Positions 4,992 through 58,113 of a stretch of 64,000 nucleotides of DNA are shown piece after piece; positions within the stretch are counted from its first letter, which is position 1, and each line of letters starts with the position of its first letter. The translations under genes and the position numbers were made by a program. Below the pieces are notes generated by a model, which did no database searches, was not told the DNA's origin, and worked only from the letters and a program-made list of their open reading frames with translations. Source of the stretch: Siphonodentalium dalli (taxonomy: Eukaryota > Mollusca > Scaphopoda > Gadilida > Siphonodentaliidae); contig CP136069.1 in NCBI GenBank assembly GCA_032622095.1, positions 128,259,123 through 128,323,122 of the forward strand, given 5' to 3'.

Positions 4992-7900
4992 AAAAGAACG
5001 GGAGATCGACCAAATGACGTGGCGTACATGACCTCCTGTGCGTTTGCTAACGGCGGGTAACCATGTGGGAGGGTCTCACCACGGAGAGGAGAGCGCATCA
5101 AACGGATAACAAACTTAAAATAAGCCAGTGGGCTTGTTGTTTAATTCCCTTTTAATCATTCCATTTATTTACTATTATATTTACTTATATTGGAATTGAT
5201 GTTATTTACCTACATGTATGCTTTCGGGATTGTAAAATAAATATGTTTACACTAAGAATAGACCATTCCGATGTACACGTTTTAACGTTTTATGGAACGT
5301 TTTATAGCATGATCCTACCCTTATTCCATCAATAAACCCATTATATAAATTGTGATATGAAACGTTCGTCGCATAACAGGAAATAGTGCCAGGTGACCTT
5401 TGACTTCCGGTTTGTCGTCTGTTTATATTGCGTACTCTACGTCTAAAAAATATAAATATTTTTACAACAAGCTCTAATGAATGAAGAGTTTGAAAGGTTA
5501 TTTCATTAAATTTACGCCATTAAATACGTCAAATAATCTTTATTTATCTAGGACTATTTCTTTAACCGGGTAAACTATGCATAGCTACGTGAAACGTCAT
5601 CACATGCCTTATAGAAGCCGATGTTAGTTTCACGCCCCATTGTTGATTTAAATAAGTTTTATCAATGTTTTTGGATCATGTAATAAATAGAATCTACAAC
5701 TCGTCCCAAATTTATAGCGGAATTTACAAAACTAACCAGAATTTTGACTTTTATCGAACAAGCAAATATACCTAATTTTAGAACAACCTTGACAATAAGT
5801 ATCTAAAACATTGGATAATTAATTTTAACTGTCATCCAATTGAATAATACATTTCAGAATTATATATTATATTATCATGACAAATTAGGAAAAAAAAGAA
5901 AAAATTACATAAATATTTCCTTGGTGTTTTCTCAGTTGACAACCGATCTTCACGCGGAAAGTGACGTCACATTACAAAACGCTCGCAGTTACACCACCTC
6001 GGCGGATCATTCCATTCATTGCCCATTGTAGCCGAGCGTAACCAATGGAATCGCCCCCAAATCGTCGTCGTTATATATCTGCGAGCAGCGACCATAAATA
6101 AATGGGTTGTCAGTCTCGCCCGGTATAAACCACTTGGACTATTTATAAACTCCACCGATGAACATCACCGCTTGGTGTACCTGGTCTTTTCTTCGTCAGT
6201 TATCGTTGTTCGAATCGTCGGTTGCATATTAGGTCTTGAACGCGGATTCAAATACACTGCGTTAGTAGAAAACCCAGGACCGGCATTCTACAGAGCCATG
6301 TACGCCAAACGGTATATATATACTTGGTATATTTTCCATGCCGTGTGTGACTTAAACTAATTTTATAGTAATACAGTTTTCCGCTCTTACTTTGGATCAC
6401 CCAACCAACCAGTTTATGTACGGCTTATGACAGCCCAACGCACTATACACCTCACCGACTGACCCACTCTGGAATTGGTCTAAATGTGTGCGCATAATTA
6501 ATAAGCCTATATGTTTATAGCAACATGAGACGGCTTAATGTTCAATAACATTCGCAGCATCTCCATAAGTTGCATCTTCCAATCATTGCCTTATTGTTTT
6601 CGGAAGGTATTGTCGGTCAAAATATTAATCGCTATTTGTTGGGTAGCAACCAGACGCTATAGTCTGCCAGCCAGGTTACGATATGACGCGTTGTGTGGGT
6701 CTCTTAATCATTAAATGCAAACATATAACGGCTATGACCTCGTATAGCTCGTGTCTAGTCAAGTTACCCTGATACTTACTCGAGTAACCAAATTGCGAAT
6801 ATGTTTACAAGCGCGAATCCTGAGTCAATCAACGTGTTATGTTGTGACTCAGATTATACAGATTATCTTATTGGAAAATACGTATTGTCATAACTGTTAT
6901 ATATGTGTAGAGTTATCCCGTTCATTGAGAAATCACCCCATTGCATGTAGAAACCACTGGAAATCACCTGACAAACTTGCCGAGATACACGTACGTGTGT
7001 TAGGTTACCTCAACTGAGCGTGGAACACAAATCAACGCTCATCGGGATTGGAAACAGCTTCGTCGCGGCTGGTCGGTTTGTGTTGGCCTGATTCACATTA
7101 CTAACTGGGTCACTTGGGACATCCAGTGTTGATATAAATCAGACAGATTCGTACAATATTTAGAAGAGTTTCACTTTCACACGTATAGACCTTCGGAAAA
7201 CATCCCAAGTATCGAATTACTGGGGTATCGCTCACAGTGCATTTCAGTGGGTGACCTTCGGAAAATATTGACACTGGCATATAAGCACGTATACATGTCG
7301 CAAACGCAGTGAAGCAATCCAGAATCGATTACTCTGCAGCGTCGTTTTAAATGGTGTGTTAGTCACATAGTGGAGAATTATCACCTGGACCGAATGGTGA
7401 TGGCAATCATTTGATTGTACGATATTGGAAACATGTTGTGATTTCATCATATGAGTGGCACATGCTTCAGTGCACTAAATAAACCACGTTATACATCGAT
7501 ACTGCAAACACTATAAACAGCAATCATCATGCCCATTCATGCCATTGGAATCATTAATGACTACTGCAGTTAATATTGATACAAGAAAATGCATGCATAT
7601 ATGATCATATGGCGAAGTGTACACAGCTGATGGACATAATGAGTGGCAAAAGGCACATATCAGTATCACCCCTGGTTAAGTGGTCCTGCAAATTTGCCAC
7701 GATGTTCGTTGGTCATGCTGAATAGATATGATGCTGTTGGGGTAAAATTATGCTTTTAAGAAGAAGTGTATTTCATATTATAAATATCGTCGCATCGAGC
7801 CCCTGCCTTATTATCTTACAGCGGACTTGACGCCCAGATGCTGTGGCTGGATTTTTCGTCAAATTTTAAACGACTTTATCATACAACTCGATACAAAATG

Positions 7901-8394
7901 TTACATTTATCGGTTTATCAGAAAGAGCGATACTTTACGGTCATAATGATGTGTTATAATCTAACTGCTGTGTTAAATTACGTACAGGATATACCATGTA
8001 ATTTGGGAGTAACCTCACATTTGATCTGTTTGTTTACGTATATTATAGAGAAGACCCGAACTTTTGCGAAGCTCGCGACGTCAAATGATTTTGTATTCTT
8101 TTGAAATTATGTAAACAGTATGATAAAATAAAAAAAATCATATTAAATTACTACTTTCAGTTGACAACTCTTCTTCAGAACAAATATAATGTTTTCTATG
8201 GAATAAACCAAGTTACTGTCACAATTGTGACCTTTTTTTTACAATCATTGGTGAACTTAGTTGAGCGGGCGATTTACGTTTAAAGTCCACTATAGAAAAC
8301 TAAGGCAACCGTACTTCGACGCAAACCAGCATTTTCCCTATAAATTCCACAAGCTGGTTTACGACAAAGGAAACATGGGCTGTCTTAACCCTTT
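4992..8394. other. Long stretch without recognisable genes
   Basis: Both strands show only short open frames with background codon use. The longest, at 6019-6360, resembles no family I know. I see no RNA gene and no intact transposon end. Confidence 0.45.
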
Positions 8395-8988: not shown

Positions 8989-9490
8989 TTAAAGGCACGT
9001 GCGGCCTTAATTGTCGAAAATATTCATATTTGTTCCAAACACCGTAAACAGAAAAACATTAAAACGCATACAGTTCCGTTCATATATACCATGACCATCG
9101 CGTAAACAGCATGTTATCATAAAGATTTACTATATTTTACCTAAGCAAGAGCCTGATTGTGTTACAGAAGACAACACAATGCTGCTGGCTAATCACACAC
9201 AAATGGCATAAACGCTCTTTATTCGTTCCATATCAGGAATCCACCCACAAAGAACGCTCTTTATGTTTACCATCATAATATAAACAAACACCAGAAAAGT
9301 AACTTTTTAGGCTGTTGTTTACATAACAATGGTCAAACATATGACCATAACATACTGTTTATGCGATATTTCTTATTTGTATACGGACAAAGTCTATCTA
9401 CATTTTGATGTTCTTTCTGTTTGTGGCGGTTTTTGACAGGTGGATATATTTTCACAGGATACCCACCGCCAAGGCCGCACGTGCCTTTAA
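8989..9490 (+). mobile_element. Kolobok-like TTAA MITE (type K1), about 500 bp
   Basis: Bounded by TTAA at 8989-8992 and 9487-9490, with TIRs AAGGCACGTGCGGCCTT and its exact reverse complement. Near-identical elements lie at 20781-21280 (reversed) and 57514-58014, with diverged copies at 45734-46230 and 28884-29655. TTAA plus an AGG-starting TIR fits Kolobok-type elements better than piggyBac; this is an inference from the ends. Inside are several TGTTTAC/GTAAACA sites and a pair of AACGCTCTTT motifs at 9211 and 9253. No transposase. Confidence 0.85.
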
Positions 9491-10370
9491 CACTAATGAA
9501 TCCTTTGTCTGTCATAATGCTGAATGGTAGATGGTGTTGAGTGGTATACATGTATTATCAAGTAACATTGGTATGATTAAAGGCGTTTATACACGGTATT
9601 TGAAGGTATGGGCATAATTTTTATAGATGTTAGATGTTAAATAAAACAAACTTATTAATTAATTGTGACGGAGACCAGAAAATGAGGATTTAATTTGGCA
9701 ATTTGTTTTTATTTGGCTGAAAAATATTAACCAAAATATTGTTCGGCCCAGCGTGAACACTGTTACCGGTGGTCGGTGGTTTCTACGCGTGAATGGATTT
9801 CCCGTGGTCAAGCGACTGAACCGACGATAAACAAATCCTGCGTATGTGACAAAAGTCAGGTGAGATAAACAAGTTCAATGTCGTCTATGTATTCACTTTG
9901 CAAACATTTGGAAATAAACCCCCTCCAGGCAAAATGTATCCAAGGTGACTGATTAGAGTCGCCTATATGGCTGATGTCTCTCGTTTGTATATGGATTTGC
10001 TCGGCAAATAAACCGCGCTCTGCGCTAATATTATGACATGAATAATCACCGTATAGGTATATAAAATTATCGTAAAAATATCTGCCCTTTCTAAATTGAA
10101 GAACGTGTGTAAATTGAACGCATGTACAATGTTGTCCAGTCTAGTGTATATACTTTAACGTGTAAATTTGTGTGAAAATACACTTACGTGAATCTATTAG
10201 TTTGACTATGTTTGTTGCTATACGTGTATATTTATGATAGGTTTACCGTTGCTATGGACTCCCCGTCAATGATTCCTACCAATTATTCAAATGTTTCCGC
10301 TTCCCGTGTTAATATAGCATGATAAATAATGGATATTACCACAGCTGTCAATCAACTAAATATGACCAGA
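9491..10370. other. Non-coding stretch
   Basis: No exon, RNA gene or transposon end is recognisable between the K1 element and the TA-MITE. Confidence 0.45.
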
Positions 10371-20780: not shown

Positions 20781-21280
20781 TTAAAGGTACGGTTGGCCTT
20801 GGCGGTGGGTATCCTGTGAAAATACTTCCACCCATCAAAAACCGCCACAAACAGAAAGAACATCAAAATGTAGACATACTTTGTCCGTAAACAAATAAGA
20901 AATATCGCATAAACAGTATGTTATTGTCATTTGTTTGGCCATTGTTATGTAAACAAAAGCATAAAAAGTTACTTTTCTTGTGTTTGTTTATATTATGATG
21001 GTAAACATAAAGAGCGTTATTTGTTGCTGAATTCCTGATGGACCTAATAAAGAGCGTTTATATCATTTGTGTGTGATTAGCCAGTGACACTGTGCTGTCT
21101 TCTGTGACACAATCAGGCTCTTGCTTGTGTAAAATATAGTAAGTCTTTATGATAGCATGCTGTTTACGCGATGGTCATGGTATATATGAACGAAACTGTA
21201 TGCGTTTTAATGTTTTTCTGTTTACGGTGTTTGGAACAAATATGAATATTTTCGACAATTAAGGCCAACCGTGCCTTTAA
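20781..21280 (-). mobile_element. Kolobok-like TTAA MITE (type K1), reversed
   Basis: TTAA at 20781-20784 and 21277-21280, TIR AAGGTACGGTTGGCCTT and its near-exact complement. It is the same family as 8989-9490 in the opposite orientation. The AAAGAGCGTT motif pair is at 21009 and 21049. The TIR differs from 8989 in the middle (CGGTTGG in place of CGTGCGG), and both ends differ in concert. Confidence 0.88.
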
Positions 21281-22018
21281 TCATGCATGCATTTAATTGT
21301 TGAAATTAGATATGTAAAGACTATTACACCACGATATAAATGTCATCATATTCATGCGAGCGTAGGATATAACTCTTTCGTATTTAATCATGAAGATATG
21401 TATATCTCACACTTGGCCCAAAAATCATTATGGTATTTCAATAGTTAAGGGTATCACTGACGTAAAATCGAACAAAGTAAAGTTACCTGAACGACCATCG
21501 ACAGATTGCTAACTTCAGAAATGCCAGTTCTTAATTGACATGCATAATTTGAATATTGATTATTACACAGACCCGTTTATTTTCCCAGTTTGTTCGCTGA
21601 ACTATCTGAGTCGTAATATTTTTTCGCTCAGTTTTTAATGTGAGCGCGAAAAATTGTACTGCGCGAATTTAAACATGAGTAATGTATCGGCAGCAAACAT
21701 CACGTCTCTACACATAGGAACCACGTATGGTGCTACGTGCAAATTACAAGACAATTGTGAGCAGGAGTTTGAGAAAAGAGGCATATTGAACATGACCAAA
21801 CACGGCACTAACGTGGTTATGTAACAACATGAATGTACTGGTATACCGAATACATAATCTTTTTATCTTAAATCCCTGGAAGGTTCGCATTGTCAATGTC
21901 AATATCAAGTTATTGAAATTTCGCTGCCCAACGAACAAATAAATACTTCTATACGGATGATTTCGTATCGGTATATCAAATAAAATCATACATATTTCTT
22001 TACAGCTGTCAAAATTGT
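21281..22018. other. Non-coding stretch
   Basis: No exon or intact repeat recognised. GCGCGAATTTAAA near 21660 echoes a similar string near 20710. Confidence 0.4.
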
Positions 22019-33240: not shown

Positions 33241-33917
33241 CCACATACCCCACCCTCTGTGTACATTTTGTATTGTATCCAGGCCAACTGTATTGGTAGC
33301 CATCGCCACCCCCCGAAATTAGTAAATAAATCAGAACCATATGAAACAAAACTATAAAATGAATGACCATTATATAAATAAAGGTTACACAAACGTTTGT
33401 GTATACTGTTGGAATCCAGGACACATGAATCCACACGACATAGTGTAAATTCATCGGCTTAGGTGGAACGTTGGACGAGAGTCGGACAACCCACTTGACA
33501 AGGAGGCCAAACACTACACAAATATTCACAATATGACGAAATGTATTGTAATATAATGCATTATTATAAAATTGATAAACAGAAGATATACTTGCATGGT
33601 GTAGAGACTTACCCATTAACTAGGTAGAAACAAAAACTCTTGCGAGAAAGTTCCGAGGGCATGTAAACCATGCACGCAACCTTCGACGACGACAGAAATA
33701 ATCGCGGGCAGATTAGTCAGAGTATAACAATTATGGATGACTACATATGGATAGTTAGTTATCAGACATATCTCTTTAACATATGCGACATCATAAGTGT
33801 TTAAAATGATATATAAATATATAAAGATGTATATATATACATGAGACATTCCCCAAACTACATGTACTACAACCTGCTACATGTACCTGCTACATGTATA
33901 CACTACAACCTACTCAC
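33241..33917. other. Probable first intron of the neverland-like gene
   Basis: On the minus strand this follows the splice donor at 33912-33917. I see no Rieske exon (CxH..CxxH) here; downstream exons must lie further left or were not recognised. Confidence 0.45.
33912..33917 (-). promoter_or_regulatory. Splice donor of nvd-like exon 1
   Basis: On the minus strand the sequence reads G|GTGAGT, matching the metazoan consensus GTRAGT, exactly where the conserved protein segment stops. Confidence 0.75.
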
Positions 33918-34389
33918 CCATCACGTTAATGGTGGTAGCCTCTCTCTTCTTCAAGCGGTGCGACTCTATCAGACCGAACCACCCGTTCGGGTACACCGGT
34001 GGAATATTAGCACCTTGAGGTCGTTTCTGCATCAAATTAGAAACTTCCTTCGCTGTCAGAACTCCATCAGTAACGTAACCAACATCTCCTAATTTCATAA
34101 TTCTAGTATATGGTTTGAATAAAAACTGGTGCAGATAATAGAGGACAACAAATATCAGCACAAGAGCAGCATAAGTTTTCCAAGAAGTAAAATCCAAAAG
34201 TTCAACACATGCTGCTAAACTCGTTGTCATTCTTAACTGGGTGTCCAGCAATGCCCGGTACCAGAGTTGTCCAACTTCGAGAAGCGGGGATTTCAGAACT
34301 TTGTCTGCGAGGGCAGCGACCAGCGTTGCACACAATCCAATTATAGTGACTCCGCACAGGAAGCGTTTTGAAAAATAACTATTGGCCAT
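33918..34389 (-). CDS. nvd: neverland/DAF-36-like cholesterol 7-desaturase, first coding exon
   Basis: Neverland-type Rieske oxygenases convert cholesterol to 7-dehydrocholesterol at the ER membrane. This exon encodes the N-terminal 157 residues plus one base of the next codon. Hydrophobic segments lie at residues about 9-27 and 72-92. The conserved segment just before the Rieske domain, PPVYPNGWF (130-138) followed by ESHRLKKRE, is diagnostic of the family as I know it. The ATG at 34387-34389 is the first after an in-frame stop (34429-34431) and has A at -3 and G at +4. The exon ends ATGG|GTGAGT, a strong donor, in phase 1; the frame stops three codons later if unspliced. The family is about 420-460 residues, so the Rieske and catalytic domains are missing here. 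Two predicted membrane segments rather than one is a point to verify. No downstream exon was identified. Confidence 0.85.
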
Positions 34390-36639
34390 AATTTCTGATA
34401 ATTCAGAGGTCACCTGACGTGCTAGAATTCAATATATCCGCGTCTTGAGATGACGGAGCACTTACTTATGAATTGTGTGTTGGTGATTAATCCCGACAGT
34501 TACGATGAAAATTAATCCTATTACAAAACGTTAATCCGTATACCGGAAACAGAATAATGCGTCAGCACGTAGGCGATTACGGCGTTGATAAATCTCCGTG
34601 AAATTGGTGCGCACCAGGATTCCACATTAACACTGCGCTTTAAACTCCAGGATGGTAAAGGGAGAGAAAGGCACAGCGATATCAGAATGACATGCGTGTG
34701 ACCACGTACCGCGTGCACCGCACACACGATAAGGATGGAGTCAAAATCTAGTTAAGCTTAACTCTGATTCAAACCGTCGGCGACAGAGATAATAACGCAG
34801 AGCTTGTATCATAAGGTCACTTTATAAAGCTAGCACGCTCTATCATTAATATATCCGGCTAAAATGTTTACCATCGCGACGCGAAAACTCAGTCGCTGGT
34901 GCATGAAGACCATTGCTTAACAACAACCATTGATTTTATTGTGTTTTGCCTCGCAGCTCTGTGGCATAACGGCTCGGGTACGATATCGGGTAGATGATAT
35001 CGGTGAAAGCCTGTTTGCGTCCAGTGTGTCTTTAATCGTTAAGACTCGCCGTTCGGTCGTAAATCTGTGGACGGACAGACCCCCACTATCGATTTTATTT
35101 ATGTACATCTCACATAGAGTGAAAGTGTCGCTACATCTCACATATTAAGAGTGAAAGTGTCGTTGGTAAATTATGTATGTCTTGATGAATTAGTGAGGGT
35201 CGTGTTATTACATATATTATAGCTTTTACGCACGTTAAACTTGTCCCCGTATACGACAGGAATGTTCAAGGCCACGAATCTACGTCACTAATGTAATATA
35301 TAAACCGTCGCGTCTGACGTTCGGAACTCATGCCGTCGAATTCTGGTATCTGGCCTGGACCAGGTTTCGCGTAAACTATAGTAAACCAAAGTGTGCCTTC
35401 TTGTTGTCATTCAAGCCTCTGTCTGTTAATAGTTCGTACTATGTGGTAAAGTACGAGTTATGGTCACGATTCACGAAACATACACTGTAGGTAACTTGTT
35501 TGAAGCGCAAATTGGAGAAGCTTTATAGAAAACTTAATGAGATTCGTATACCTATGAAGTTGTATTATTGTGTTCTATATATAGCCCACGTTACCTGAGA
35601 ATAGTATCAGAGCACGCGCTTAACGTAACGTAAAGTGGCGCTCTCTTAAACGAAAGGCGCAATAAAAACGATTATCCGATTGGTCAGATTGTCTATCTTA
35701 ACCAATCAGATTTGACGTTGCATAGACATGGTTGTTGCTAAGCCTTGTAGTTCAAATACAGAACTCATCACCTCGGCGTTATAAGTATTTCCACAAATTA
35801 CCTATTATAACACAACAAAAGGATGAGATGAAAACTATATACATAGAAGGTGAGTGATCTAAATAAAAAATGTACTTCATATATTGTTTCGGACCGAAAA
35901 ATGTCACCAAAACACTTCTTTTACTGCGATTTGAGACGTCCGTTGTTTGAGTCTGACTTGGTTGGTGAGTTGGTCAAGGACTCAAGTTTGTGTTTGAAAT
36001 CGACAGTTTCAAACTCTGAGTCTTTGTTATTGCCGTTTATGTTTCAATGAATGATTAGCTGAAAGTTAACTTGGCAAGATAACTAGATCATAGTTGCCAT
36101 CAACTGAATGAATTTAATCGCAAAAAAATGCCTCTAATTTATCAATTATCAGCAGTCTCTGTTCCAACTCCAAAGCTTAACAACAGTTGTCATTAGCGAA
36201 GACCGGAAAAAAAATCAAAACATATTTCCGGTTATTCCAACAAGGTGAAGGACAAGGTCGGGACAATTCTCAAAACAAAAATTAAAATCCTTGAAATTGA
36301 AATGAAATTAGGCTTCATGTTGGACGTGAGGAATTATTCTCACTTCGTCTTTTCATCGTGGATTTAGCGGGCGTTAGTTAAAAATTATCTGATTCTAATT
36401 AATGGCCAGATTTCCAGTTTACACTACTCACTTGTCACAACATGATTCATGAATTCCAAGGATTGTAATTTGTACTATTTGTATATACATTCCGCTTTAT
36501 TTAATTTGAATGTGATTACTACTAGTGCTAGTTTTGTGAAAGTAACATAAATAGGATACATATATACACAGAGACACGCTTGTCCCAAACCACATATCAA
36601 CACAAGTAAGAAGAACTAAGATGGATGCTGATTGTTTAT
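34390..36639. other. 5' flank of the nvd-like gene; no other gene seen
   Basis: Contains the probable 5' UTR and promoter of the minus-strand gene; I could not define a transcription start. CAGGTGACC at 34408-34416 (minus) could be a UTR splice site. No transposon ends are recognised over these 2.2 kb, which is unusual in this window. Confidence 0.45.
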
Positions 36640-42860: not shown

Positions 42861-43501
42861 TAAATGAAATACAGATTAACAGGCAAGTAAACAAAATTGC
42901 TAAAGTCATATACATTTTCCAGCTGTTTTCAAGTTTCACTCACATGACTCAGATAATTATGAATCTGAAACACTGTGGCAAAGCTTGACTATATATCCGA
43001 TTGTTTGAGTCGGATGTACTCAACCACCAATCTTGAAGTTATACAGGAGCGAAGCTGACAATGCGCTATTTCGTACGGCAGGTCGTCCAACTAATGGCTC
43101 ACGCAATATGACCGCCCTTGTACCAGCGGGTCTTTTATACACCACCCTCACCAGTCCTCACTAGAGCTACCCCACGGCATATCAATCAATCAATTTTATT
43201 ATAAACGCGTCATTTGGCTTGACATTCATGTTTAACACACATGTGTCCTCATTTACAGTTGTAAGATTAAAATAAATACATATCAAAGGTGGGAGAAACA
43301 CAGCAAATATTCAATGAATATGATCTTGATTATAATGGATGGGTAACTATACATATTCATGCAGACATTAATATACATATAACTGTGCGTAATATGCGTA
43401 TGCAAATAATAATACTGACAAGCAATAACAGAACATATATAATGTATGTGCACTATGTGGGTATTTATGGGACATGACATACATGTACGTAAACAATATC
43501 T
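42861..43501. other. Non-coding stretch upstream of the LINE duplication
   Basis: No gene is recognised. CAATCAATCAATTTTATTAT near 43186 resembles the tail of a LINE, but nothing else supports that. Confidence 0.35.
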
Positions 43502-43622
43502 GAGACACGTTATAGGTGCCTCGCAGTGCGGTGGTGAACACCGCGGGCCCACACGGATCATTTAAACGGACATGCTCATTTGAACATCCAACTGTTGTCT
43601 ATAAGTAATTTAGAAAATGATA
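43502..43622. repeat. 121-bp flanking duplication, left copy
   Basis: Starts GAGACACGTTATAGG and ends TTTAGAAAATGATA. It differs from 45403-45523 at two positions out of 121. It lies directly against the 3' tail of the LINE. Its first 55 bases are unusually GC-rich, and the remainder is family B repeat sequence. Confidence 0.93.
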
Positions 43623-45402
43623 GAGAGAGAGAGATGTTTTATTGCCTCCTTGAAGGAGAGATATGTGTACAGGTATATACATGTTTATGAATACAACAGT
43701 GACATTCAAACTAAATCAATTTCACTTATATGAGGTTGGTTGACCTTTTGCATTGGTCAGATGGAGCAAAGGACACACACAAATATGAGACAATGAATAA
43801 ATAAGCGTTTCTCATCACACATGAGTTCCAGAGTAGGATGACTTCCACATCCACATGCATAAGTGAGGAATCCTACCGGCGAGAGTAAATCCAGGAATGA
43901 AAATGTAGGAATTCCGAATATGTTTATGATTTTATACCAGAATTCATTTCTGAGTTCCTGTATGTGCGGAGAGAAGCAATGGAGGTACATGTGTGACATG
44001 AGGTCAGAGTATTGGCACCCGCAGTGCTTGCATAGTGCGTTGTTGTCATATGTCGTTCTGGAGATGATGTTTGCCATATAGAGAGCTTTAGATTTGTACT
44101 TTGGGTGTTCCCTGCATAGTAGCCAGCCTCTCCAGATCGACATAGGATAGGATTTAACCATCCTAAAGAAATTCAGTGATTCATTTGTCAAATCACACCA
44201 TGGTGCTTGATATGCGAAGTTGTTGATCTTCTCTTTTACAATTTCTTTCCATTGTTTCTGTGATGGAAAGAACCCAGAATCAATAAAATTTGTGAGGTAA
44301 TCGATGAGATCATATGCGTGCAGGTGTGTGAATATTTCCTTCGCAAAGCCAGAGAGGGGCCGTTTATAGAGGAGGTGGCCCTGAACATTGAACAGAAACA
44401 CTCTTAGAGCATCGCGATGAGTGTTTGGAATATTTATTAGTGTTCCCAAGAATAAAAGTTTTTTCCGGTCTACTTCGACATGCAGTGGTGTTAAACCAAG
44501 TAATGACAGTGAAAGTTCTGTACTTGTTCTAGTAGGCAGACATTGAATATGTTTTATACACATACGATAGACTCTCTCAAGTTGCAGAACTTGTGTATTT
44601 GTCAGGCCATACCACATTTCACATCCATATAATGCCTTGGGGATTACTACACATTTCAAAATTTCAAGAGCAGACGAGGGAGTCAGGAATTTGGTGATTG
44701 GCGATCGGCATGCACCGAAGAATGTCCTTCTTAGCATTTCACATGCTCTGTCAATATTTCGAGATCTATCAGACCGATTATTTTGAGGGATACCAAGGTG
44801 AATAACGTCTTTGACTTCATTCAGAGTGTTCAGTCCGAGAAACCATTTATGTTCTCTCGCTGGAGCGTTTGAGCGTTTACGAGTGTCAAAGACGATAATT
44901 TCGCTTTTAGCAAATGAGTATTCAAATTTCCACGTTTTGCTGTACTTATAACATTTATTCAGAAGACTTTTTAAGCCACCTTCTGAGTAAGAAAGAACGC
45001 AGACATCGTCGGCAGTTGTCGGACATGAACACGAGATTGAATCTATATGAGCGCCCTCCGGTGATAATGAGAGTTCCTGTAGGAGGTCGTCTATATAGAT
45101 AAGGTACAGGAAAGGGGACAGAACACCCCTTGTCTTGTACCTTGCTCTATGGTGAACGGTTCTGAAAAATAGCCAGCATATCGCACTTTGCTTTTGATCT
45201 CCGAGTACATGGCAGCAACAACTCTAAGCATACGCCCTCCAAGGCCTTTCTGCATTAATTTATAGAGTAGTCCTTCGTGCCATACTCTGTCAAAAGCTTT
45301 TTGTGAATCCAAAAATGCGGCGTATACCTTAGAATTGTTGAGATGTGCATATTCGACGACATCTTGGAGTATATATGAGGTTACTGGGCAGCCAACCAGC
45401 CA
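43623..45402 (-). mobile_element. Young 5'-truncated LINE (non-LTR retrotransposon)
   Basis: On the minus strand the element runs from 45402 (truncated within the reverse transcriptase domain) to 43623. The 3' UTR of about 134 bp ends AATAAAACATC followed by a short (TC)n tract. Direct repeats of 121 bp flank it exactly. The single frameshift and 2/121 difference between the flanks suggest a fairly recent insertion. The clade is not assigned; endonuclease and N-terminal parts are absent. Confidence 0.9.
43757..45402 (-). pseudogene. LINE ORF2 reverse transcriptase, C-terminal two-thirds, one frameshift
   Basis: Reverse transcriptase would copy the LINE RNA at the nicked target. Visible in order on the minus strand: the motif A region FLDSQKAFDRVWH (about 45284-45320), then GTRQG at the start of motif B, where a one-base loss in the run at 45126-45129 shifts the frame; the next frame continues LSPFLYLIYIDD, then TADDVCVL (45005-45013 encode the ADD), the thumb with a KSEIIVFD stretch, and near the C-terminus a CKHCGC..H..C zinc-knuckle (CX2C-X9-HX4C). 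From the frameshift to the stop at 43757 there is no interruption, about 460 codons. The catalytic box reads TADD rather than FADD/YADD. The element starts inside the domain, so it cannot encode an active enzyme. Confidence 0.88.
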
Positions 45403-45523
45403 GAGACACGTTATAGGTCCCTCGCAGTGCGGTGGTGAACCCCGCGGGCCCACACGGATCATTTAAACGGACATGCTCATTTGAACATCCAACTGTTGTC
45501 TATAAGTAATTTAGAAAATGATA
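45403..45523. repeat. 121-bp flanking duplication, right copy
   Basis: Partner of 43502-43622, same orientation and identical length, at the 5'-truncated end of the LINE. After it the sequence continues into unrelated DNA (AGATGATTATTG). Confidence 0.93.
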
Positions 45524-45582
45524 AGATGATTATTGTTTCGATTTATAAACGAAAACCAGATGAACAGGATGTATATACTCTA

Positions 45583-45665
45583 GTCCGAAGGTTCCCTATT
45601 CCGACAGTATCAAGGGGGTTCATTATTCCGAAGGTTTTCTGTTCTGAAGGTTCTTTATTCCTATT
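45583..45665. repeat. TTCCGAAGGTTC repeat cluster, left
   Basis: Short imperfect tandem of ATTCCGAAGGTTC-like units ending CTTTATTCC. An inverted relative lies at 47983-48039; the two may be the ends of one older element that later received the insertions between them. Confidence 0.6.
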
Positions 45666-45733
45666 ATAAAAAATCTATATGTTACCATCCCCCAACCCCG
45701 TCATGAAATGGAAAATACTAGTACCACAGAACA

Positions 45734-46230
45734 TTAAAGATACGGGCGGCGTTGGCGGTGGGTATGTGTTCAAATATTCACCTCCGTCAAAAACCGACAT
45801 AAACAGAAAGAATCGTAAAATATAGACAAAATTTGTTCTTATAGCAATCAGAAATATGGCATAAACAGTATGTTATTGTCAATTTCCCCCCTATGTTATG
45901 TAAAAGAAAAAAACGTTACATTACCTGGCTTTTGTTTAGATCCGGATATGGTAAACATAAAGAGCATTATTTGTTACTGTTTTCCTGATATGAAAATAAT
46001 AAAGAGCGTTTATATCATTTGTGTGTGATTAACCATTATAATTGCGCTGTGTTATATAAACAGAAGCACAACTTCTGTAACACGAGCAGGCTTGACGACA
46101 ATATACTATTTACGCGATGATTATGTTTGGCATATGAACAAAACTATATATATATTTTAATATTCCTTCTGTTGATGGCGATTTGAACAAATATGAATAT
46201 TTCTGCAACGAACGCCGCCCGTGCCTTTAA
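45734..46230 (-). mobile_element. Kolobok-like K1 MITE, diverged and reversed
   Basis: TTAA-AGATACGGGCGGCGTTGG at the left and AACGCCGCCCGTGCCT-TTAA at the right. The AAAGAGC motif pair is at 45959 and 46001. About 497 bp, more diverged from the three best copies. Confidence 0.82.
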
Positions 46231-57513: not shown

Positions 57514-58014
57514 TTAAAGGCACGTGAGGCCTTAGTTGTCGAAAATATTCATATGTGTTCCAATCACCGTAAACAGAAAAACATTAAAACGCATACAGTT
57601 TCGTTCATATATACCATGACCATCGCGTAAGCAGCATGTTATCATAAAGATTTACTATATTTTACCTAAGCAAGAGCCTGATTGTGTTACAGAAGACAAC
57701 ACAATGCTGCTGGCTAATCACACACAAATGGCATAAACGCTCTTTATTCGTTCCATATCAGGAATTCACCCACAAAGAACGCTCTTTATGTTTACCGTCA
57801 TAATATAAACAAACACCAGAAAAGTAACTTTTTATGCTTTTGTTTACATAACAATGGTCAAAAATATGACAATAACATACTGTTTATGCGATATTTCTTA
57901 TTTGTATACGGACAAGTCTGTCTACATTTTGTTGTTCTTTCTGTTTGTGGCGGTTTTTGACGGGTGGAAATATTTTCACAGGACACCCACCGCCAAGGCC
58001 AACCGTACCTTTAA
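57514..58014 (+). mobile_element. Kolobok-like TTAA MITE (type K1)
   Basis: TTAA at 57514-57517 and 58011-58014. The left TIR AAGGCACGTGAGGCCTT and right TIR AAGGCCAACCGTACCTT are less well matched to each other than in 8989-9490. The AACGCTCTTT pair is at 57736 and 57778. Otherwise near-identical to 8989-9490. Confidence 0.87.
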
Positions 58015-58113
58015 CTCCGGCACTGCTAGCAGAGGATTGTCGTGAACCGAATTGGATGTTACCTTTGTGTGACGAGAATTGAAGCAGTCAAATAGCTGAT
58101 CGTACCGAATCAG

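Follow-up and report, generated by a model that had tools for sequence, protein, structure and literature searches.

Insertions of LINEs usually carry target-site duplications (TSDs) of about 5–20 bp. Within the window, a stretch of 64,000 nucleotides from the scaphopod Siphonodentalium dalli (contig CP136069.1, positions 128,259,123 to 128,323,122), a 5'-truncated LINE copy lies between two direct repeats of 121 bp. The locus raises the question whether these repeats are a true TSD and, if so, whether their length reflects a set distance between the two nicks of the insertion or a distance that varies from copy to copy.

The insertion in the window

The LINE copy occupies positions 43623–45397 on the minus strand, and close sisters match both its parts. 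Its 3' end is formed by a (CT)n tail (43623–43634, minus strand), read from the sequence and of the same kind as in sister copies. A 326-aa reading frame at 43757–44737 (minus strand) represents the C-terminal part of the LINE's ORF2; the same protein occurs in sister copies and had no match in a Pfam search. The Pfam domain content of the copy consists of a part of the reverse transcriptase (RT) only, at 45091–45390 on the minus strand (RVT_1, E 5.6e-7).

The repeat at the 3' side of the LINE (43502–43622) starts right after the tail. It is identical in 119 of 121 positions to the repeat at the 5' side (45403–45523), with mismatches at repeat positions 17 and 39, which confirms the two differences described in an earlier sequence-only reading of this DNA. 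That reading had both flanks abut the element. This holds for the tail side and fails at the truncation point, where five bases (AGCCA, 45398–45402; like the repeats, assigned to no strand) differ from both target and LINE. They are not LINE sequence, since every one of the 39 other copies among the matches listed aligns from query base 6 and not from base 1, and are regarded as filler.

Long repeats by themselves are not rare in the window, as a self-comparison gave 40 direct-repeat pairs (≥60 bp, ≥90% identity), the 121-bp pair among them. Its distinctive feature is the LINE that fills the space between the two repeats, with only 5 bases left over. Among the best candidates scored in the 2.23-Gb, nine-contig genome, none besides these two places contained the full 121 bp, and bases within 49–114 of the repeat recurred at 14 further places with 82–87% identity. 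The 121-bp direct repeat is a true TSD. Its first 55 bases are GC-rich as had been stated (65% GC against 29% in the remainder), but the suggestion that they form a preferred target was not borne out: among the candidates scored they occurred only at the window site, and the target sequences of the other insertions are unrelated.

An Rfam search of window positions 43000–46000 gave no known RNA gene, and a tRNA search of the whole window found none. Just past the LINE's 5' side, four imperfect repeats of ~24 bases are located at 45581–45663. A dispersed repeat of ~500 bp lies beside the LINE near 45730–46230, with copies at 8989–9491, 20781–21281 and 57514–58015 of the window. A 172-aa frame at 33910–34428 had no Pfam match; it seems similar to the N-terminal region of Neverland-type Rieske oxygenases.

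The LINE family and its long duplications

With the 5' part of the LINE as query, at least 39 other copies were obtained at 93–99% identity (best 40 of 203 first-look candidates scored), and with the 3' part at least 39 at 98–100% (best 40 of 369). Thirty loci from each of the two match lists were read (L009–L068), ten per list being left out. A 3' end with a (CT)n-type tail was reached in 27 of the 30 loci L009–L038, and the truncation points vary. In L046, the (CT)n tail measures ~45 bases, compared to 5–20 in most sisters.

The sisters L016 and L015 contain the domains PF14529 (AP-like endonuclease, E 1.2e-7 and 1.9e-7) and PF00078 (RT, E 2.8e-23 and 5.7e-25), and the alignment of L015 with human L1 ORF2p spans query residues 3–678, covering both the AP endonuclease and the RT. 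The ORF2 frame of L016 extends over 1,174 codons from stop to stop. It is open across the 1,046 codons covered in L015 and L023, and interrupted in L010, L020 and L026. Upstream in L016 lies a frame that overlaps ORF2, is at least 402 codons long and gave no match in a Pfam search. The family is a young APE-type LINE: the endonuclease domain precedes the RT in L015 and L016, the 3' ends are alike and followed by a simple tail, copies are 5'-truncated and LTRs are absent. A TSD of the usual 5–20 bp, a trait of APE-type LINEs that is not strictly defining, was not found next to both junctions in any of the 25 truncated copies described below. Two further members, L010 (C5:132160850) and L011 (C5:129894005), are located ~2.27 Mb apart and are 99.95% identical over 3.8 kb including their flanks, due either to a duplication or to an assembly effect.

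The sample comprised 25 distinct 5'-truncated copies with truncation point and 3' end both inside the locus, L009 being the window copy. Dropped from L009–L038 were L031, L035 and L037 (no 3' end reached), L036 (its 5' edge coincides with the locus end) and, because their 5' ends lie beyond their loci, the long copies (L010, L011, L013, L015, L016, L020, L022, L023, L025, L026 and L038). L049 was left out as a duplicate of L048, and the remaining loci of the 3'-part search were second views of known places that served only to extend flanks. L048 (C6:125503214) and L049 (C6:125487125) contain the same truncated insertion 16,089 bp apart with flanks 99.7% identical, apparently a tandem duplication of 16 kb with the LINE inside it; a TSD of ~15 kb at this place was unsupported when pieces of the region were tested.

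For every copy, its own 5' and 3' flanks were compared. As a cross-control, 600 mismatched pairs were formed from the 5' flank of every copy and the 3' flanks of the 24 others; they gave five hits of at least 60 bases, none of them anchored. A reading of the repeats as LTRs of an LTR retrotransposon was rejected on the same control and because sequence and length of the repeat differ per insertion.

Long TSDs of 121 to ~1,360 bp were found in eight of the 25 copies, the window copy included. In seven of them, located on four contigs, the repeat reaches the LINE at either end: L009 (121 bp), L066 (256–265 bp), L065 (429–438 bp), L046 (507–511 bp), L019 (514–524 bp), L051 (591–594 bp) and L014 (~1,092 bp). 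The higher figures count a junction stretch where the target resembles the LINE. Owing to an overlap of tail and target, the L014 repeat begins 6 bases past the reference end. In the eighth copy, L030 (~1,360 bp), the repeat was seen at the far end only, its start lying outside the sequence examined; here, 212 of 212 bases of the 5' flank recur without difference and end at base 1,357 of the 3' flank. The members of the repeat pairs are 98.3–100% identical.

The phenomenon is wider than the single copy first described. TSDs above 100 bp in 8/25 copies compare with at most 10% for L1 in HeLa cells (excerpt of PMC5223499; p 0.002). The 121 bp of the window copy is the shortest duplication measured in the sample and, given the broad spread of lengths, one draw from a broad distribution and not a fixed stagger.

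Two other repeats were kept out of the count. In L047, a repeat of 121 bp with 83% identity was not accepted because it is diverged and ends 32 nt short of the LINE. In the long copy L016 (C1:74788866), bases 11–410 of the 3' flank recur in the same orientation 11,966 bp upstream, at 98% identity; this is possibly a TSD of 0.4–7.1 kb or an empty paralog.

Deletions, copies without duplication and junctions

Two copies differ from their empty counterparts by missing target sequence, the counterparts being paralogs and not alleles. Both flanks of L054 recur at 99% identity ~19 kb away without the LINE and with 169 bases between them. Two diverged paralogs (75–80%) have ~170 bases between the flanks, and one further (73–81%) has ~405. 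The 99% empty paralog and the LINE have GGCC in common at the 5' junction, a microhomology of 4 nt, so that the insertion removed 165–169 bases. A TSD of ~19 kb had been considered for L054 and was rejected, as 200 bases at the predicted place gave no match and the empty paralog was found. The insertion of L027 probably made a deletion of ~91 bp, judged by the ~91 bases missing compared to a dispersed paralog; the evidence is weaker here because identity to this paralog is only 88% on one side and 95% on the other. The value of 91 was determined by hand, and the script value of 59 counts an inverted LINE piece as target. At its 5' end, L027 contains an inverted copy of its own next ~25–34 bases, a fold-back.

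L012 and L028 seem to have no duplication: among 40 scored candidates no second copy of their 3' flank was found beside the LINE, and none was found in their own flanks. Thirteen of the 25 copies (L017, L018, L021, L024, L029, L032, L033, L034, L047, L048, L055, L057 and L067) had no accepted duplication within summed flanks of ~1.0–2.9 kb, and extending the 3' flank by 8 kb for L055, L057 and L067 gave no same-strand match. A demonstrated long duplication is thus absent in 17 of the 25 copies, including these thirteen. A search for short TSDs in 22 copies (18 of the 25 as well as L031, L035, L036 and L037) gave none that abuts both junctions. Flank matches of 5–7 nt were present in nine of the 22. 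L018 came nearest, with 5 nt that abut the 5' junction yet lie 4 nt beyond the tail, and may have a short TSD. The sequence-only reading had proposed sister insertions with short or no duplications as evidence against a long TSD; the sisters gave a divided answer, with long ones in the eight copies above, none clearly short, two apparently without any and the two with deletions (in L027 a probable one). The sample consists of truncated copies only; TSDs of the ordinary short length may occur in complete ones, as is reported for human L1.

The 5' junctions were examined for microhomology, with lengths counted by eye from the printed alignments. It amounts to 4 nt in L054, 3 nt in L066 and L051, 2 nt in L065, L019, L014 and L030, and 1 nt in L046; the window copy has none and carries the 5-nt filler instead. 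At least 2 nt are shared in seven of nine readable junctions, which in this small sample gives p 6e-5 to 1.2e-4 against random joining. In L066, one base next to the microhomology matches neither parent. Read in LINE sense, six or seven of eight readable sites have T immediately before the first nick (p 0.0016 if seven, on a small sample); L014 is ambiguous and L019 shows G. This hints at a preference of the endonuclease.

Completion of the insertions and alternative explanations

That the 3' ends are intact and tailed and that an endonuclease domain is present speaks for target-primed reverse transcription, and the spread of the duplication lengths together with the deletions points to a second break at no set distance from the first. 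It is quite probable that this young APE-type LINE completes its insertions without a tie to a second nick near the first one. Judged by the junction sequences, the second end would most likely be captured at a distant nick or gap via short microhomology. In the proposed course, the element's endonuclease would nick one strand, and the RNA tail would be copied from that nick. The other strand would then open far away, at a position that varies, through an independent nick, a gap from repair or replication, or a late cut of the endonuclease. The cDNA end would be joined there by a microhomology of 1–4 nt, at times together with a filler or a fold-back, in the manner of alternative (polymerase-theta-like) end joining, which the short microhomologies, the one filler and the one fold-back resemble. 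If this break lies to one side of the first nick, fill-in would produce a long duplication; if it lies to the other side, a deletion would result. A more far-reaching version is put forward tentatively, its chances being somewhat short of even: the lineage, or its host, would lack any coupled second-strand cleavage, and end-joining capture of any distant nick, gap or nascent strand would finish each insertion, with routine tandem duplication or deletion of 0.1 to >1 kb around the element.

The spread of lengths also bears on the alternatives. The sequence-only reading had cited R9 of rotifers as a precedent for widely staggered nicks. One alternative of this kind is a wide, set stagger of ~120 bp brought about by the protein of the element, as for R9 of bdelloid rotifers, for which a TSD of 126 bp, specificity for rDNA and a single length are reported (excerpt of PMC6895275). 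The 121 bp of the window copy taken alone would fit, and in both elements the TSD is far above the usual size. For the window's LINE, however, the duplications range from 121 to ~1,360 bp, a deletion occurs in L054 and probably in L027, and the sites are dispersed; a fixed stagger is refuted for the sample and scarcely credible for the family. An R9-like element with a constant ~126 bp at one rDNA site was likewise rejected, since lengths vary, the sites are unrelated and lie on several contigs, and positions 43000–46000 of the window had no Rfam match. Tandem duplications that existed beforehand, or assembly errors, with a LINE between the copies by coincidence, could be expected in a repeat-rich genome in which one LINE copy does lie inside a 16-kb tandem duplication (L048/L049). 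Against this, seven LINE copies sit between their repeats to within a few bases at both ends, so that coincidence would need the LINE at a duplication seam every time, and no cross pair was anchored; this explanation is very improbable.

Two alternatives carry more weight. The long duplications may be a property of the host, whose germline repair would supply no close second nick, so that any LINE there would produce them. A similar spread of TSDs, from 5 bp to 5.3 kb with a median of 1,495 bp, is given for L1 in human cells deficient in nucleotide excision repair (NER) (excerpt of PMC5223499), and this explanation, if unlikely, deserves attention. It is rather doubtful that the TSDs of the family are usually short and that the long ones are peculiar to a minority of 5'-truncated insertions, like those known from HeLa cells. 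All copies measured here are truncated, truncated L1 insertions in HeLa include extremely long TSDs and deletions (excerpt of PMC2912911), and ZfL2-2 in normal DT40 cells gave a TSD of 1,228 bp in one insert of 25 (excerpt of PMC2666801). Short TSDs dominate in those systems, though, and one abutting both junctions occurred in none of the 25 copies.

Single long TSDs are already known, and in NER-deficient cells they are common for L1. In cultured human cells of this kind, TSDs above 100 bp were present in 4/7, 21/23 and 22/28 L1 inserts of three cell types along with some deletions, and a distal, more random second nick was proposed (excerpt of PMC5223499). This resembles the present family, also an APE-type LINE with long TSDs of broad length and some deletions; unlike here, where the insertions belong to a natural genome and the protein is only distantly related, a repair defect was needed. 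ZfL2-2 in chicken DT40 cells shares the one kilobase-scale TSD and, with Ku70 deficient, long deletions (343–50,187 bp in 5/25 inserts), and differs in that 24 of 25 inserts in normal cells showed changes of at most 20 bp (excerpt of PMC2666801). L1, ZfL2-1 and Nimb-2_DR also have microhomology or extra bases at 5' junctions, but their TSDs peak near 15, 5 and 12 bp, respectively (excerpt of PMC4245944). A natural LINE family with such long, variable TSDs was not met in the literature searched, which had most subscription journals outside its scope.

For the question of how the second cut is placed during LINE insertion, a family with naturally long, variable target changes offers a contrast, in its protein or in the host's repair genes, to LINEs with short TSDs. 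Surveys limited to short repeats (10–49 bases, excerpt of PMC13295347; 5–30 bp, excerpt of PMC2912911) would miss such insertions, which duplicate or delete exon-sized stretches. If coupled second-strand cleavage were indeed lacking, the family would be a germline engine of local duplication and deletion.

Other elements were seen beside copies of the family. No LINE of the window's family lies inside the further direct repeats seen in L069 and L071. Those at 321–4482 of L069 are 1.1 kb long, 98.8% identical and enclose 1.9 kb; a frame inside has a protease-like motif, and the whole is presumably an LTR retroelement. At 6122–7992, L069 contains a related LINE with a protein 35–54% identical, the 5' end of which lies beyond the piece examined.
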